Positions 13,421-64,000 of a DNA stretch of 64,000 bases are shown piece after piece. The DNA is taken from the NCBI GenBank assembly GCA_023078555.1, contig CM041197.1:12431967-12495966 (forward strand). Direction: 5' to 3'. The position numbers and the translations under genes are program-made. Position 1 is the first letter of the stretch. Each line of letters starts with the position of its first letter. Origin of the DNA: Ulva prolifera. Lineage: Eukaryota; Chlorophyta; Ulvophyceae; Ulvales; Ulvaceae. The notes beneath the pieces were generated by a model. That model did no database searches, was not told the DNA's origin, and saw nothing but the letters and a program-made list of their open reading frames with translations.

Positions 13421-16400
13421 GCTAGAATACACCTTTCCGTCGTTTCTGTGACAGATGTATGAGGCTACGGAGCATGCGTGTGCTGCTGAGGTGCACCTGT
13501 GGGCACTGTAATTTGGATGCGGAAAACGATCGAATCATCANACCATTTCCGTCGTTTCTGTGACAGATGTATGAGGCTACGGAGCATGCGTGGTGCTGCG
13601 GTGCAACCTGTGGGCACTGTAATTTGGATGCGGAAAACGTCGAATCAATCAAAATCTGGAGATGCAGTGCGTCGGAACATGCTAATGCTAGAATACTCCA
13701 GCTCCGTCGTTTCCATGACAGATGTAAGAGCTAAGGTGCGTGCGCGTCTGTGAGGTGCACTAGTGCTGCTGAGTGCACCTGTGGCACTGTAATCTGGATG
13801 CGGAAAACGATCGAATCATCAAAATCTGAGCATGCAGTGCTGTTCGGAACATGTATAAATGCTAGAATAGACCAGCTCCGTCGTTTCCATGACAGATGTA
13901 TGAGGCTACGGAGCATGCGTGTGCTGCTGAGGTGCACCTGTGGGCACTGTAATTTGGGTGCGGAAAACGATCGAATCATCAAAATCTGAGCATGCAGTGC
14001 TGTTCGGAACATGCATAAATGCTAGAATACACCATTTCCGTCGTTTCTGTGACAGATGTATGAGGCTACGGAGCATGCGTGTGCTGCTGAGGTGCACCTG
14101 TGGGCACTGTAATTTGGATGCGGAAAACGATCGAATCATCAAAATCTGAGCATGCAGTGCTGTTCGGAACATGCATAAATGCTAGAATAGACCAGCTCCG
14201 TCGTTTCCATGACAGATGTATGAGGCTACGGAGCATGCGTGTGCTGCTGAGGTGCACCTGTGGGCACTGTAATTTGGATGCGGAAAACGATCGAATCATC
14301 AAAATCTGAGCATGCGGTGCTGTTCGGAACATGCATAAATGCTAGAATACACCATTTCCGTCGTTTCTGTGACAGATGTATGAGGCTACGGAGCATGCGT
14401 GTGCTGCTGAGGTGCACCTGTGGGCACTGTAATTTGGATGCGGAAAACGATCGAATCATCAAAATCTGAGGATGCAGTGCTGTTCGGAACATGCAGTAAT
14501 GCTAGAATACTCCAGCTCCGTCGTTTCCATGACAGATGTAAGAGGCTAAGGTGCGTGCGCGTCCTGATGAGGTGCACTAGTGCTGCTGAGGTGCACCTGT
14601 GGGCACTGTAATCTGGATGCGGAAAACGATCGAATCATCAAAATCTGAGCATGCAGTGCTGTTCGGAACATGTATAAATGCTAGAAGAGACCAGCTCCTT
14701 CGTTTCCATGACAGATGTATGAGGCTACGGAGCATGCGTGTGCTGCTGAGGTGCACCTGTGGGCACTGTAATTTGGGTGCGGAAAACGATCGAATCATCA
14801 AAATCTGAGCATGCAGTGCTGTTCGGAACATGCATAAATGCTAGAATACACCATTTCCGTCGTTTCTGTGACAGATGTATGAGGCTACGGAGCATGCGTG
14901 GTGCTGCTGAGGTGCACCTGTGGGCACTGTAATTTGGATGCGGAAAACGATCGAATCATCAAAATCTGAGCATTGCAGTGCTGTTCGGAACATGCATAAA
15001 TGCTAGAATACACCATTTCCGTCGTTTCTGTGACAGATGTATGAGGCTACGGAGCATGCGTGTGCTGCTGAGGTGCACCTGTGGGCACTGTAATTTGGAT
15101 GCGGAAAACGATCGAATCATCAAATCTGAGCATGCAGTGCTGTTCGGAACATGCATTAATGCTAGAATACCAGCTTCCGTCGTTTCCATGACAGATGTAA
15201 GGAGGCTAGCGGAGCGTCCTGCTGATGTGCCTTGTGCTGAGGTGCACCTGTGGGCACTGTAATTTGGGTGCGGAAAACGATCGAATCATCAAATCTGAGC
15301 ATGCAGTGCTGTTCGGAACATGCATAAATGCTAGAATACACCATTTCCGTCGTTTCTGTGACAGATGTATGAGGCTACGGAGCATGCGTGTGCTGCTGAG
15401 GTGCACCTGTGGGCACTGTAATTTGGATGCGGAAAACGATCGAATCATCAAAATCTGAGGATGCAGTGCTGTTCGGAACATGCAGTAATGCTAGAATACT
15501 CCAGCTCCGTCGTTTCCATGACAGATGTATGAGGCTAAGGTGCGTGCGCGTCCTGATGAGGTGCACTGTGCTGCTGAGGTGCACCTGTGGGCACTGTAAT
15601 TTGGATGCGGAAAACGATCGAATCATCAAAATCTGAGCATGCAGTGCTGTTCGGAACATGCATAAATGCTAGAATACACCATTCCGTCGTTTCTGTGACA
15701 GATGTATGAGGCTACGGAGCATGCGTGTGCTGCTGAGGTGCACCTGTGGGCACTGTAATTTGGATGCGGAAAACGATCGAATCAATCAAAATCTGAGCAT
15801 GCAGTGCTGTTCGGAACATGCATAAATGCTAGAATACACCATTTCCGTCGTTTCCTGTGACAGATGTAATGAGGCTAAGGTGCGTGCCTGATGCAGTGCA
15901 CTTAGTGCTGCTGGGTGCACCTGTGGGCACTGTAATTTGGATGCGGAAAACGATCGAGTCATCAAAATCTGAGCATGCAGGTGCTGTTCGGAACATGCAT
16001 AAATGCTAGAATACAACCATTTCCGTCGTTTCTGTGACAGATGTATGAGGCTACGGAGCATGCGTGTGCTGCTGAGGTGCACCTGTGGGCACTGTAATTT
16101 GGATGCGGAAAACGATCGAATCATCAAAATCTGAGGATGCAGTGCTGTTCGGAACATGCAGTAATGCTAGAATACTCCAGCTCCGTCGTTTCCATGACAG
16201 ATGTAAGAGGCTAAGGTGCGTGCGCGTCCTGATGAGGTGCACTTGTGCTGCTGAGGGTGCACCTGTGGGCACTGTAATTTGGGATGCGGAAAACGATCGA
16301 ATCATCAAAATCTGAGCATGCAGTGCTGTTCGGAACATGCATAAATGCTAGAATACACCATTTCCGTCGTTTCAGTGACAGATGTAGAGGCTACGGAGCA

Positions 16401-17410
16401 TGCGTGTGCTGCTGAGGTGCACCTGTGGGCACTGTAATTTGGATGCGGAAAACGATCGAATCATCAAAATCTGAGCATGCAGTGCTGTTCGGAACATGCA
16501 TAAATGCTAGAATACACCATTTCCGTCGTTTCTGTGACAGATGTATGAGGCTACGGAGCATGCGTGTGCTGCTGAGGTGCACCTGTGGGCACTGTAATTT
16601 GGATGCGGAAAACGATCGAATCATCAAAATCTGAGCATGCAGTGCTGTTCGGAACATGCATTAATGCTAGAATACTCCAGCTCCGTCGTTTCCATGACAG
16701 ATGTAAGAGGCTAAGGTGCGTGCGCGTCCTGCTGAGGTGCACTAGTGCTGCTGAGGTGCACCTGTGGGCACTGTAATTGGGATGCGGAAAACGATCGAAT
16801 CATCAAAATCTGAGCATGCAGTGCTGTTCGGAACATGTATAAATGCTAGAATACACCATTCCGTCGTTTCCTGTGACAGATGTATGAGGCTACGGAGCAT
16901 GCGTGTGCTGCTGAGGTGCACCTGTGGGCACTGTAATTTGGGATGCGGAAAACGATCGAATCATCAAAATCTGAGGATGCAGTGCTGTTCGGAACATGCA
17001 TTAATGCTAGAAATACTACCAGCTCCGTCGTTTCCATGTGACAGATGTAGAGGCTAAGGTGCGTGCCGTCCTGCTTAGGTGCACTTGTGCTGGTGAGGTG
17101 CACCTGTGGGCACTGTAATTTGGGATGCGGAAAACGATCGAATCATCAAAATCTGAGCATGCAGTGCTGTTCGGAACATGTATAAATGCTAGAAGAGACC
17201 AGCTCCTTCGTTTCCATGACAGATGTATGAGGCTACGGAGCATGCGTGTGCTGCTGAGGGTGCACCTGTGGGCACTGTAATTTGGATGCGGAAAACGATC
17301 GAATCATCAAAATTCTGAGCATGCAGGTGCTGTTCGGAACATGCATAAATGCTAGAATACACCATTTCCGTCGTTTCTCGTGACAGATGTATGAGGCTAA
17401 CGGAGCATGC
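13421..17410. other. Degraded or poorly assembled satellite stretch, with N at 13541
   Basis: Frequent one- and two-base indels break the 160/179-bp spacing at 13421-13790 and 14900-17410, with a cleaner interval between. The only ambiguous base (13541) sits where about 50 bp of a monomer are missing: spacing from 13499 to 13610 is only 111 bp. The clean interval holds unusual B-like monomers reading AATAGACCAGCTCCGTCG (near 13.86 and 14.19 kb), a B/C mixture not noticed elsewhere. Error clustering around an N points to a gap-closed join. Confidence 0.75.
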
Positions 17411-20400
17411 GTGTGCTGCTGAGGTGCACCTGTGGGCACTGTAATTTGGATGCGGAAAACGATGGAATCATCAAAATCTGAGCATGCGGTGCTGTTCGGA
17501 ACATGCATAAATGCTAGAATACACCATTTCCGTCGTTTCTGTGACAGATGTATGAGGCTACGGAGCATGCGTGTGCTGCTGAGGTGCACCTGTGGGCACT
17601 GTAATTTGGATGCGGAAAACGATCGAATCATCAAAATCTGAGCATGCAGTGCTGTTCGGAACATGTATAAATGCTAGAAGAGACCAGCTCCTTCGTTTCC
17701 ATGACAGATGTATGAGGCTACGGAGCATGCGTGTGCTGCTGAGGTGCACCTGTGGGCACTGTAATTTGGATGCGGAAAACGATCGAATCATCAAAATCTG
17801 AGGATGCAGTGCTGTTCGGAACATGCAGTAATGCTAGAATACTCCAGCTCCGTCGTTTCCATGACAGATGTAAGAGGCTAAGGTGCGTGCGCGTCCTGAT
17901 GAGGTGCACTAGTGCTGCTGAGGTGCACCTGTGGCACTGTAATCTGGATGCGGAAAACGATCGAATCATCAAAATCTGAGCATGCAGTGCTGTTCGGAAC
18001 ATGTATAAATGCTAGAAGAGACCAGCTCCTTCGTTTCCATGACAGATGTATGAGGCTACGGAGCATGCGTGTGCTGCTGAGGTGCACCTGTGGGCACTGT
18101 AATTTGGATGCGGAAAACGATCGAATCATCAAAATCTGAGCATGCAGTGCTGTTCGGAACATGCATAAATGCTAGAATACTCCAGCTCCGTCGTTTCCAT
18201 GACAGATGTAAGAGGCTAAGGTGCGTGCGCGTCCTGCTGAGGTGCACTTGTGCTGCTGAGGTGCACCTGTGGGCACTGTAATTTGGGTGCGGAAAACGAT
18301 CGAATCATCAAAATCTGAGCATGCAGTGCTGTTCGGAACATGCATAAATGCTAGAATACACCATTTCCGTCGTTTCTGTGACAGATGTATGAGGCTACGG
18401 AGCATGCGTGTGCTGCTGAGGTGCACCTGTGGGCACTGTAATTTGGATGCGGAAAACGATCGAATCATCAAAATCTGAGCATGCAGTGCTGTTCGGAACA
18501 TGTATAAATGCTAGAAGAGACCAGCTCCTTCGTTTCCATGACAGATGTATGAGGCTACGGAGCATGCGTGTGCTGCTGAGGTGCACCTGTGGGCACTGTA
18601 ATTTGGATGCGGAAAACGATCGAATCATCAAAATCTGAGCATGCGGTGCTGTTCGGAACATGCATAAATGCTAGAATACACCATTTCCGTCGTTTCTGTG
18701 ACAGATGTATGAGGCTACGGAGCATGCGTGTGCTGCTGAGGTGCACCTGTGGGCACTGTAATTTGGATGCGGAAAACGATCGAATCATCAAAATCTGAGG
18801 ATGCAGTGCTGTTCGGAACATGCAGTAATGCTAGAATACTCCAGCTCCGTCGTTTCCATGACAGATGTAAGAGGCTAAGGTGCGTGCGCGTCCTGCTGAG
18901 GTGCACTTGTGCTGCTGAGGTGCACCTGTGGGCACTGTAATTTGGGTGCGGAAAACGATCGAATCATCAAAATCTGAGCATGCAGTGCTGTTCGGAACAT
19001 GCATAAATGCTAGAATACACCATTTCCGTCGTTTCTGTGACAGATGTATGAGGCTACGGAGCATGCGTGTGCTGCTGAGGTGCACCTGTGGGCACTGTAA
19101 TTTGGATGCGGAAAACGATCGAATCATCAAAATCTGAGCATGCAGTGCTGTTCGGAACATGCATAAATGCTAGAATACACCATTTCCGTCGTTTCTGTGA
19201 CAGATGTATGAGGCTACGGAGCATGCGTGTGCTGCTGAGGTGCACCTGTGGGCACTGTAATTTGGATGCGGAAAACGATCGAATCATCAAAATCTGAGCA
19301 TGCAGTGCTGTTCGGAACATGCATTAATGCTAGAATACTCCAGCTCCGTCGTTTCCATGACAGATGTAAGAGGCTAAGGTGCGTGCGCGTCCTGCTGAGG
19401 TGCACTTGTGCTGCTGAGGTGCACCTGTGGGCACTGTAATTTGGGTGCGGAAAACGATCGAATCATCAAAATCTGAGCATGCAGTGCTGTTCGGAACATG
19501 CATAAATGCTAGAATACACCATTTCCGTCGTTTCTGTGACAGATGTATGAGGCTACGGAGCATGCGTGTGCTGCTGAGGTGCACCTGTGGGCACTGTAAT
19601 TTGGATGCGGAAAACGATCGAATCATCAAAATCTGAGCATGCAGTGCTGTTCGGAACATGTATAAATGCTAGAAGAGACCAGCTCCTTCGTTTCCATGAC
19701 AGATGTATGAGGCTACGGAGCATGCGTGTGCTGCTGAGGTGCACCTGTGGGCACTGTAATTTGGATGCGGAAAACGATCGAATCATCAAATCTGAGCATG
19801 CGGTGCTGTTCGGAACATGCATAAATGCTAGAATACACCATTTCCGTCGTTTCTGTGACAGATGTATGAGGCTACGGAGCATGCGTGTGCTGCTGAGGTG
19901 CACCTGTGGGCACTGTAATTTGGATGCGGAAAACGATCGAATCATCAAAATCTGAGGATGCAGTGCTGTTCGGAACATGCAGTAATGCTAGAATACTCCA
20001 GCTCCGTCGTTTCCATGACAGATGTAAGAGGCTAAGGTGCGTGCGCGTCCTGATGAGGTGCACTAGTGCTGCTGAGGTGCACCTGTGGGCACTGTAATCT
20101 GGATGCGGAAAACGATCGAATCATCAAAATCTGAGCATGCAGTGCTGTTCGGAACATGTATAAATGCTAGAAGAGACCAGCTCCTTCGTTTCCATGACAG
20201 ATGTATGAGGCTACGGAGCATGCGTGTGCTGCTGAGGTGCACCTGTGGGCACTGTAATTTGGGTGCGGAAAACGATCGAATCATCAAAATCTGAGCATGC
20301 AGTGCTGTTCGGAACATGCATAAATGCTAAAATACACCATTTCCGTCGTTTCTGTGACAGATGTATGAGGCTACGGAGCATGCGTGTGCTGCTGAGGTGC

Positions 20401-59673: not shown

Positions 59674-60154
59674 GTGGGCACTGTAATTTGGGTGCGGAAA
59701 ACGATCGAATCATCAAAATCTGAGCATGCGGTGCTGTTCGGAACATGCATAAATGCTAGAATACACCATTTCCGTCGTTTCTGTGACAGATGTATGAGGC
59801 TACGGAGCATGCGTGTGCTGCTGAGGTGCACCTGTGGGCACTGTAATTTAAATGCGGAAAACGATCGAATCATCAAAATCTGAGGATGCAGTGCTGTTCG
59901 GAACATGCAGTAATGCTAGAATACTCCAGCTCCGTCGTTTCCATGACAGATGTAAGAGGCTAAGGTGCGTGCGCGTCCTGATGAGGTGCACTAGTGCTGC
60001 TGAGGTGCACCTGTGGGCACTGTAATCTGGATGCGGAAAACGATCGAATCATCAAAATCTGAGGATGCAGTGCTGTTCAAAACATGCATTAATGCTAGAA
60101 TACTCCAGCTCCGTCGTTTCCATGACAGATGTAAGAGGCTAAGGTGCGTGCGCG

Positions 60155-60158
60155 TCCT
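60155..60158. repeat. Target site duplication, left copy (TCCT)
   Basis: The satellite reads GCGCGTCCT up to the element. The uninterrupted satellite reads GCGTCCTGATGAGG. TCCT therefore appears once on each side of the insertion. Confidence 0.93.
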
Positions 60159-60178
60159 CACTACAAGGATGGTAGGCA
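60159..60178 (+). repeat. Left terminal inverted repeat
   Basis: Reads CACTACAAGGATGGTAGGCA, the exact reverse complement of 62454-62473. It follows directly after the TCCT duplication. Confidence 0.95.
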
Positions 60179-60186
60179 GGTGATGC

Positions 60187-60618
60187 TGTACATTATCAGT
60201 GACCCATTGCCGGCTGAACAGTAGGCAAACAGTGTCCAGATGTGTATGAACTGTATGGCGATCGACGCAGGAGTGGCCGAGTGCTGTACAGCTAACGTGC
60301 TGTTTGACAGGGATGTGAACGGTGGTGTTGCACGGTCGACGCGCTGCGACTGTGGACAATGTACACTTCTGTGCGACGAGTGCGCGAGCTGCCCATTCAA
60401 TCCTGTGAAATGTTCACGAGTACCTGGATGATGTGCACGTGCAAGTACTTCGGCCTGCATCATGCAGTGCAAGTGGACCGGCAAGATGCGCTCGTCGTGT
60501 ACATTCCTCGCGTGGCGTGTTCACGTCCTTAAAAATCGGCACATTACTGACACTCTTTCATGAATAATGTGCTCGTCAGGCGTAGGCTACGAGTGCTGTT
60601 ATACCACAATGATGTACA
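60187..60618. promoter_or_regulatory. Left subterminal TGTACA cluster, candidate transposase-binding sites
   Basis: Five copies of the palindrome TGTACA at 60187, 60285, 60360, 60498 and 60613, often with a preceding GTGCTG or GATG. One hit would be expected by chance in about 4 kb. Several CMC and hAT transposons bind their transposase at repeated subterminal motifs; that role here is inference. Confidence 0.6.
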
Positions 60619-62055
60619 GTTGGTGCACACGAAATGCGATAGCAGATACCCGGTCATGCGGTCCGTGTGTAGGCTGCAGCTGCTTAACATGATCTTCTAT
60701 TGTACGGACAATAGTTAATGCCGATCATATCAGGCCACTCCAGATCTGGCACTAGTGTCCGTGCCGTCGCACTGGCATCCGCTGAGGTACCCGGCTCTCC
60801 GGAACATGGCGCAGTCAACATAGGTATACATTATGTGCACTTACTAACGCTAAACATGCGGAGCAGCTATGCAAAGTGTTTGGCACGCTGCACAGGCAGC
60901 TGCACTGCGCGTGCCAACACGGCATCAGAGTTGTTGACCACGGCACGACGAAACAGCAGCGACACCGACAACTAACCAGACAAATTGCTGCTGAATACAG
61001 ACTGTTGTGCTTGATGCTGTTCTTGAGCAGGGCTGAGCATGCGGATGTGTACACTGTGGACAAGACGGAACGTACAGCTGCAGACACAATGTCTGCATAT
61101 GCACGATATCGTGCATCCCCAGTCACAGTGCAGCAAAGTATTGTATTTGTCAGCTGCTACCAGTGCAGCACATATGTGCATTGTGCCTTCACAGGACAAC
61201 CGACGGCGTGTGGCCGTACGTAGCAGATCGACGCTGCACGATCACAAGCATTCGACATTATGCTATGCCTACCGCAAGAGGACTAGCTGTAGATGAGAGA
61301 AATGCAATCGACATAACAGTGCCTTGAGCGAATTTTCTCATGCCTGCCGACGTTCACCTGACACTTGTCGTCAGCGTTGACCGTCAAATCAATTACTATC
61401 GTTGATTAAAACACTGGCTCAATCTTTGATCTTTCCTTTGATGTATACTATGCGCAATAGTGACGAGCACAACCAGCAGGTCACACTTCCGCGATCAAAC
61501 CAGTATTGGCGTAACAAAACCACAATGGAGCGCAGTGAGCGCCTCGTTCAGCAAACAGTAATATGCAGGTAGCAATGTAACACGATTTTCACCTTCGTTG
61601 AGTATCATGCTTCTGTTATCGAGTTGACATTTCAGACGACGCCGCGACTCTGCTGCGCACTTGTCGTGCTTGTGCAGAGTGGTATGCAGCGAAAGCTGTA
61701 AGAGGCCTGATAGCATAGTACTCTACAACAATCAAAGACATATAGAGTTGTACATTGTCGTCGCGGATCAGGCGAAATGATTCTGGTTTCTGCAAACGTG
61801 AACGTCCTACCGCGCCATTTGTAACACGCTGACAGCATCACCTCAAGTACATCGTGTTCGCGGATCTTGGAATCGAACAACTGATAGATGCAGTATATTT
61901 GAAGAACGTGTTGATATCGCAATCTGTCCTAGCGTACAGCAACGGCTCTACGAATTGAGCTGCCAACAGCAGGCTACTGATAGCAGGCAACCCGAAACGA
62001 GCGAACTAAAACTGAAAACTGAAAAAGGAGCACATCAGCTGAAATGTGCTGTTCG

Positions 62056-62445
62056 TGTACATTTGCTAGCAGCTTGCGCGGTCGTGGCGTGGGTCAAACA
62101 TGTGCTCGACAAGTACACCAGCCACGGAACTGCACACTTCGGTGGAGCGTCGGAGCGCGTTCGTGGAATGTACATCATCAGAAGCTGCCGAGTGCTGGAC
62201 GTGTACATGACGAGCACACGCAGCCTATCAGCTGATGTGCTGTTCGCAGGAGCATGAAAGCGCGTTTGCGGCATCTGCATTCCACACGTTGAGATGCGCT
62301 GCAGGTGCGCACCGCGACACCACGTGGGCAACACATCCCATGTACACGTTTCGAACGCAGTTCACCCAGTCACGGAATGTGTCTAAAGAGTCCGTGAAAT
62401 GTGCGCGAATGTGCCGGCGAGCAAAACGAGTGTCGCTAATGTACA
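62056..62445. promoter_or_regulatory. Right subterminal TGTACA cluster, candidate transposase-binding sites
   Basis: Five copies of TGTACA at 62056, 62169, 62202, 62341 and 62440, plus a near match AGTACA at 62112. The outermost ends 28 bases from the right tip, the same distance as the left outermost copy from the left tip. The next is 127 bases away versus 126 on the left. Two further copies lie in the interior (61048 and 61749). Confidence 0.6.
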
Positions 62446-62453
62446 CGCTGGCG

Positions 62454-62473
62454 TGCCTACCATCCTTGTAGTG
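62454..62473 (-). repeat. Right terminal inverted repeat
   Basis: Reads TGCCTACCATCCTTGTAGTG on the given strand, the exact reverse complement of the left end over all 20 bases. Confidence 0.95.
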
Positions 62474-62477
62474 TCCT
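62474..62477. repeat. Target site duplication, right copy (TCCT)
   Basis: TCCT directly after the right end, then GATGAGGTGCACTTG, which is normal C-monomer sequence. Confidence 0.93.
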
Positions 62478-64000
62478 GATGAGGTGCACTTGTGCTGCTG
62501 AGGTGCACCTGTGGGCACTGTAATTTGGGTGCGGAAAACGATCGAATCATTAAAATCTGAGCATGCAGTGCTGTTCGGAACATGCATAAATGCTAGAATA
62601 CACCATTTCCGTCGTTTCTGTGACAGATGTATGAGGCTACGGAGCATGCGTGTGCTGCTGAGGTGCACCTGTGGGCACTGTAAGTTGGATGCGGAAAACG
62701 ATCGAATCATCAAAATCTGAGGATGCAGTGCTGTTCGGAACATGCATTAATGCTAGAATACTCCAGCTCCGTCGTTTCCATGACAGATGTAAGAGGCTAA
62801 GGTGCGTGCGCGTCCTGATGAGGTGCACTTGTGCTGCTGAGGTGCACCTGTGGGCACTGTAATTTGGGTGCGGAAAACGATCGAATCATTAAAATCTGAG
62901 GATGCAGTGCTGTTCGGAACATGCATTAATGCTAGAATACTCCAGCTCCGTCGTTTCCATGACAGATGTAAGAGGCTAAGGTGCGTGCGCGTCCTGCTGA
63001 GGTGCACTTGTGCTGCTGAGGTGCACCTGTGGGCACTGTAATTTGGGTGCGGAAAACGATCGAATCATCAAAATCTGAGCATGCAGTGCTGTTCGGAACA
63101 TGCATAAATGCTAGAATACACCATTTCCGTCGTTTCTGTGACAGATGTATGAGGCTACGGAGCATGCGTGTGCTGCTGAGGTGCACCTGTGGGCACTGTA
63201 AGTTGGATGCGGAAAACGATCGAATCATCAAAATCTGAGGATGCAGTGCTGTTCGGAACATGCATTAATGCTAGAATACTCCAGCTCCGTCGTTTCCATG
63301 ACAGATGTAAGAGGCTAAGGTGCGTGCGCGTCCTGCTGAGGTGCACTTGTGCTGCTGAGGTGCACCTGTGGGCACTGTAATTTGGGTGCGGAAAACGATC
63401 GAATCATCAAAATCTGAGCATGCAGTGCTGTTCGGAACATGCATAAATGCTAGAATACACCGTTTCCGTCGTTTCTGTGACAGATGTATGAGGCTACGGA
63501 GCATGCGTGTGCTGCTGAGGTGCACCTGTGGGCACTGTAATTTGGATGCGGAAAACGATCGAATCATCAAAATCTGAGCATGCAGTGCTGTTCGGAACAT
63601 GTATAAATGCTAGAAGAGACCAGCTCCTTCGTTTCCATGACAGATGTATGAGGCTACGGAGCATGCGTGTGCTGCTGAGGTGCACCTGTGGGCACTGTAA
63701 TTTGGATGCGGAAAACGATCGAATCATCAAAATCTGAGCATGAGGTGCTGTTCGGAACATGCATAAATGCTAGAATACACCATTTCCGTCGTTTCTGTGA
63801 CAGATGTATGAGGCTACGGAGCATGCGTGTGCTGCTGAGGTGCACCTGTGGGCACTGTAAGTTGGATGCGGAAAACGATCGAATCATCAAAATCTGAGGA
63901 TGCAGTGCTGTTCGGAACATGCAGTAATGCTAGAATACTCCAGCTCCGTCGTTTCCATGACAGATGTAAGAGGCTAAGGTGCGTGCGCGTCCTGATGAGG
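62474..64000. repeat. Satellite DNA array, right arm
   Basis: The same satellite resumes in the same orientation and phase directly after the transposon and runs off the window end. Monomer starts are at 62511 (A), 62671 (C), 62850 (C), 63029 (A), 63189 (C), 63368 (A), 63528 (B), 63688 (A) and 63848 (C, cut by the window edge). Two adjacent C monomers occur at 62671 and 62850. Three monomers (starting at 62671, 63189 and 63848) carry GTAAGTTGG in place of GTAATTTGG. That variant is otherwise confined to the left part of the window (about 0.2-12.2 kb and 23.7 kb). Confidence 0.97.

Follow-up and report, generated by a model that had tools for sequence, protein, structure and literature searches.

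Background

Cut-and-paste transposons of the CMC (Chapaev-Mirage-CACTA) group are the closest described counterparts of the element reported here. The hallmarks of Chapaev are CAC...GTG ends and duplications generally of 3-4 bp, while the Chapaev3 subgroup has a TWA duplication with insertion between A and T (PMC4079192). EnSpm elements likewise end in CAC...GTG, and the wider group, including Transib, mostly has CA..TG ends and duplications of 2-5 bp; the same source describes the CMC transposase as a DDE enzyme carrying C(2)C and H(3-4)H motifs and gives its fungal EnSpm families a duplication of 3 bp (PMC12730594). CACTA elements are characterised by CACTA ends and a 3-bp duplication, with subterminal repeats that extend across several hundred nucleotides (PMC8978399). 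The soybean element Tgmt is similarly reported to have a 3-bp duplication, imperfect 13-bp ends and subterminal repeats (PMC2613891).

The present analysis concerns a stretch of 64,000 bp from a contig of Ulva prolifera (hereafter referred to as the window), which is almost wholly composed of satellite DNA and is interrupted at 60159-62473 by an element of 2315 bp (50.9% GC; unstranded) with no recognisable protein. The element is very probably a non-autonomous cut-and-paste transposon served by a CMC-type transposase and present as one insertion in a 179-bp satellite monomer. The evidence for the insertion, the structure of the element and its probable affiliation within the described transposon lineages are discussed below.

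Results and discussion

Satellite context and the empty site

The satellite array was phased with one 22-bp anchor sequence, for which up to 3 mismatches were allowed. This gave 371 anchors and 370 spacings, of which 251 measure 160 bp and 80 measure 179 bp. The single anchor-to-anchor spacing across the element measures 2498 bp, that is 179 + 2315 + 4, and corresponds to an interrupted 179-bp monomer on the forward strand (60004-62501) with the element inside. Removal of the element together with one TCCT restores a monomer of 179 bp, which differs by 4 from the consensus of the remaining 80 monomers of that length; when it is compared with each of these 80 individually, the fewest differences are 4 and the median is 5. 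The target site reads TCCT in 79 of the 80 other monomers, all of them full-length and uninterrupted, and TCAT in one. A looser set of similar sites (120 bp, no more than 25 differences, not counting the region of the element itself) gives the same picture, with TCCT present, once, in 82/83 sites and TCAT in 1/83. The insertion point lies after base 155 of 179 in the phasing used here.

The satellite at 1-60152 and 62478-64000 is a mix of 160-bp and 179-bp monomers. The exact 160-bp monomers, pooled as one set, show a mean of 96.9% to their own consensus and the exact 179-bp monomers a mean of 98.8% to theirs; the lower figure for the former may result from the pooling of subtypes. The 179-bp monomer type has a 19-bp direct repeat that starts at the insertion site. 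Among the 80 monomers, TCCT at the empty site is followed by GAT in 46 cases and by GCT in 33, the 80th monomer reading TCATGAT, and the 179-bp monomer thus has two subtypes.

Ends of the element and the target-site duplication

The element is bounded by perfect inverted repeats, each exactly 20 bp long, with the sequence CACTACAAGGATGGTAGGCA, the first bases being CACTA. The left repeat occupies 60159-60178 on the forward strand and the right repeat 62454-62473 on the reverse strand, and both are continued into an extended inverted repeat of 37 nt per arm, in which the left arm (60159-60195, forward strand) is 84% complementary to the right arm (62437-62473, reverse strand). One forward-strand copy of the 4-bp duplication TCCT abuts each end, at 60155-60158 and 62474-62477, the length of the duplication and the exact ends being known from this single insertion. 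When both strands were scanned with up to 5 mismatches, the 20-mer was found at the two element ends only. A perfect inverted match of at least 20 bp was seen in 0/200 first-order simulated elements, where the longest was 18 bp and occurred in 2/200 (palindromes counted). When the window was scanned for CAC...GTG pairs, located 100 to 20,000 bp apart, whose inverted ends match perfectly over at least 12 bp, 2 pairs were returned, and equal 4-bp flanks were observed only in the pair belonging to the element.

The locus thus combines inverted ends, a flanking duplication and an empty site lacking both, by which cut-and-paste transposons are recognised. In view of the restored monomer, the single TCCT at the empty sites and the results of the simulations and the pair scan, the insertion is real and exact. 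A sequence-only reading of this DNA had described perfect 20-bp inverted ends, a TCCT duplication and a clean insertion into a pre-existing monomer with exact restoration of the empty site, and these descriptions are borne out by the 20-mer scan, the positions of the two TCCT copies, the TCCT counts and the restored monomer, respectively; the 146 + 33 = 179 bp of flanking monomer given there also holds, being an alternative phasing of the identical 179 bp.

That an assembly join put unrelated sequence into the array is extremely improbable. The window does contain an N, at 13541, that resembles an assembly gap, but it is about 46.6 kb away from the element, and at the element both junctions are in monomer register, with a 4-bp duplication and perfect inverted ends. 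The single N at 13541 joins two satellite pieces with a truncated monomer. Over the approximately 4 kb that follow it (about 13500-17740), many changes of one to a few bases in the monomer spacing are found, resembling unpolished sequence beside a gap.

Coding and RNA content

Searches with the six frames of the element gave no match in Pfam at E-values up to 1 and none in PHROGs and NCBIfam at E-values up to 0.1, and a comparison of a single one of these frames with the PDB sequences likewise yielded nothing at E-values up to 1. The longest stop-to-stop open reading frame spans 151 codons, a length equalled in 81/300 simulated sequences; the open reading frames of the element were rejected as coding, as this maximum is no longer than expected by chance. 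The view that the element carries no transposase, put forward earlier from the letters, is supported as far as the six-frame searches of Pfam, PHROGs and NCBIfam and the chance length of the open reading frame extend. With respect to the CMC transposase motifs, the six frames contain no recognisable protein, as is expected of a non-autonomous member. The length of 2.3 kb, which is long for a miniature element, speaks for an autonomous element with an unrecognised, intron-split or decayed transposase; both the frequency with which the simulations reach 151 codons and the lack of matches in the above protein searches argue against it, and such an origin appears highly improbable.

No RNA family was detected by Rfam at gathering scores in 60000-62700, and no tRNA by a search of the whole window. 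The observed/expected ratio of CpG is 1.06 in the element and 0.85 in the window at 1-60150; CpG is thus not strongly depleted, suggesting that CpG methylation in the host is not heavy.

Subterminal TGTACA clusters

The palindrome TGTACA, which did not figure in the sequence-only reading, has 12 copies in the element and none in the remaining 61,685 bp of the window. The expected number is 1.4 in 500 first-order simulations (maximum 7) and 2.7 in 2000 second-order simulations (maximum 10), and the 64 six-base palindromes have a mean of 0.8 occurrences in the element, the runner-up to TGTACA reaching 6. The distances of the 12 sites to the nearer end are 29, 29, 127, 128, 202, 267, 300, 340, 413, 455, 720 and 890 bp, so that 10/12 are no farther than 460 bp from an end (binomial p 0.003, for a cut-off picked post hoc). 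The pair at 29 sits in the extended inverted repeat and these two members are therefore not independent. The 10 sites nearest to the ends form a left subterminal cluster at 60187-60618 (unstranded; element positions 29, 127, 202, 340 and 455) and a right one at 62056-62445 (unstranded; element positions 1898, 2011, 2044, 2183 and 2282).

A motif search made without prior choice of a motif also returned TGTACAT-centred sites at widths of 10 and 14, and at a width of 18 a different, mixed set that includes both element ends. At each width the motif carried more information than any of the 12 controls, with 80 starts used for the element and 40 for the controls. The TGTACA sites are degenerate outside the 6-bp core and occur in both orientations. 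These clusters resemble the subterminal arrays of CACTA elements. Subterminal repeats of Spm/En are recognised by TNPA, according to the Tgmt report (PMC2613891), and by analogy it is plausible that the TGTACA clusters serve as binding sites for a transposase or a helper protein.

Part of the right subterminal region is bracketed by a 14-bp perfect inverted repeat (62029-62042 and 62228-62241; the bracketed feature, 62029-62241, is unstranded). Single-strand folding of 62020-62250 is weakly better than that of shuffled sequences (z -1.95, with 6/200 as good or better); given this z value and a region picked for its inverted repeat, a folded structure is not claimed.

Relationship to the described lineages

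The element has the CAC...GTG ends of Chapaev, and its TCCT duplication, known from one insertion, falls within the 3-4-bp range of that lineage; it departs from the Chapaev3 subgroup, which duplicates TWA. With EnSpm/CACTA it shares the CACTA ends, and the concentration of TGTACA near both ends, measured with the post hoc cut-off above, matches the repeated subterminal motifs of that lineage, whereas its duplication is of 4 bp and not of 3 bp. With the ends of maize En/Spm the identity is longer still, CACTACAAG. Transib has CA..TG ends and the wider transposase group in common with the element, but its duplication is of 5 bp and that of the element is of 4 bp. In comparison with the soybean Tgmt, the perfect 20-bp ends contrast with imperfect ends of 13 bp, and the Tgmt motifs displayed in the source differ from the TGTACA core (PMC2613891).

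Membership of the CMC group and the lineage inside it are both unproven, the group placement being predicted from the ends and the length of the duplication. A Chapaev-type transposase is somewhat preferred over one of EnSpm/CACTA type, on account of the CAC ends combined with a 4-bp duplication. A Chapaev-like CMC family, the assignment made in the earlier reading, is accordingly plausible on these two features and is likewise unproven, since EnSpm shares the CAC...GTG termini and the element also displays CACTA ends and a subterminal cluster.

Within the same CMC explanation, the element could instead be a deletion derivative of EnSpm/CACTA, comparable to dSpm, in which the 4-bp duplication arose by a habit of the family or by chance. 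Its ends read CACTA and its motif clusters near both ends have the layout described for CACTA elements; a 3-bp duplication is, however, stated for CACTA elements, Tgmt and fungal EnSpm alike, and here 4 bp are duplicated and present in a single copy at the empty site. This derivation is a tangible possibility, held tentatively. An undescribed CMC family standing between the lineages, which would join the CACTA ends and the TGTACA array of EnSpm/CACTA type to the 4-bp duplication of Chapaev, is rather unlikely. Duplications of about 4 bp are also found in the superfamilies Sola1, Academ and Ginger, and the element might belong to another superfamily of this kind and have acquired CACTA-like ends by chance. 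The length of a duplication is not diagnostic by itself and the element offers no protein by which to place it, but the combination of CAC...GTG ends and a 4-bp duplication matches the CMC description, and a position outside CMC is considered improbable.

For the favoured reading, a non-autonomous element served by a CMC-type transposase, the following course of events is proposed. The inverted ends would be recognised by a DDE transposase that the host encodes at another locus, and the transposase or a helper protein would be bound to the subterminal TGTACA sites. The transposase would then pair both ends and excise the element, which would be joined to a target opened by cuts staggered by 4 bp. 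As the host repairs the 4-base gap at either end, TCCT would be left on each side.

Copy number and age

The element had been described as occurring once in the window, and a blastn comparison with the rest of the window at an E-value of 0.01, which gave no match, confirms this. The empty block, reconstructed with 340 bp per side, has its best match at 62656-63335 (98.2% over 680 bp), where the insertion is absent. The interrupted monomer reads TTCAAAACATG where the consensus has TTCGGAACATG, and the 18-mer of this variant is present once in the window. The AA-for-GG variant, at 60071-60088, is a private mark of the interrupted monomer. Since the variant 18-mer is unique there, the interrupted monomer has not been copied within the window since the variant arose. 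Two alternatives had been proposed for the dating: that the block has not been copied fits the private variant, while an insertion younger than the last local amplification is unproven. The perfect 20-bp repeat and the perfect duplication, which cover only 48 bp in total, fit a young insertion.

The ends were also searched for in viral contigs, a non-eukaryotic collection, where 0 matches were obtained with the 20-mer, with an 18-mer and with a 14-mer that had TGTACA after it within 30 bases. The element has no match among phages and plasmids, which are poor places in which to find a eukaryotic element, and strings taken from the element ends and from the satellite have no match in the literature text that was searched.

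Conclusions

General ideas about transposons are unchanged by this element. The insertion is of textbook clarity, and the availability of 80 uninterrupted target monomers allows the ends and the duplication to be fixed to the base from one copy. The unique position of the element in the array could serve as a marker in assembly and in tracing array turnover, and the palindromic TGTACA near both ends offers a concrete starting point in the search for the autonomous partner.
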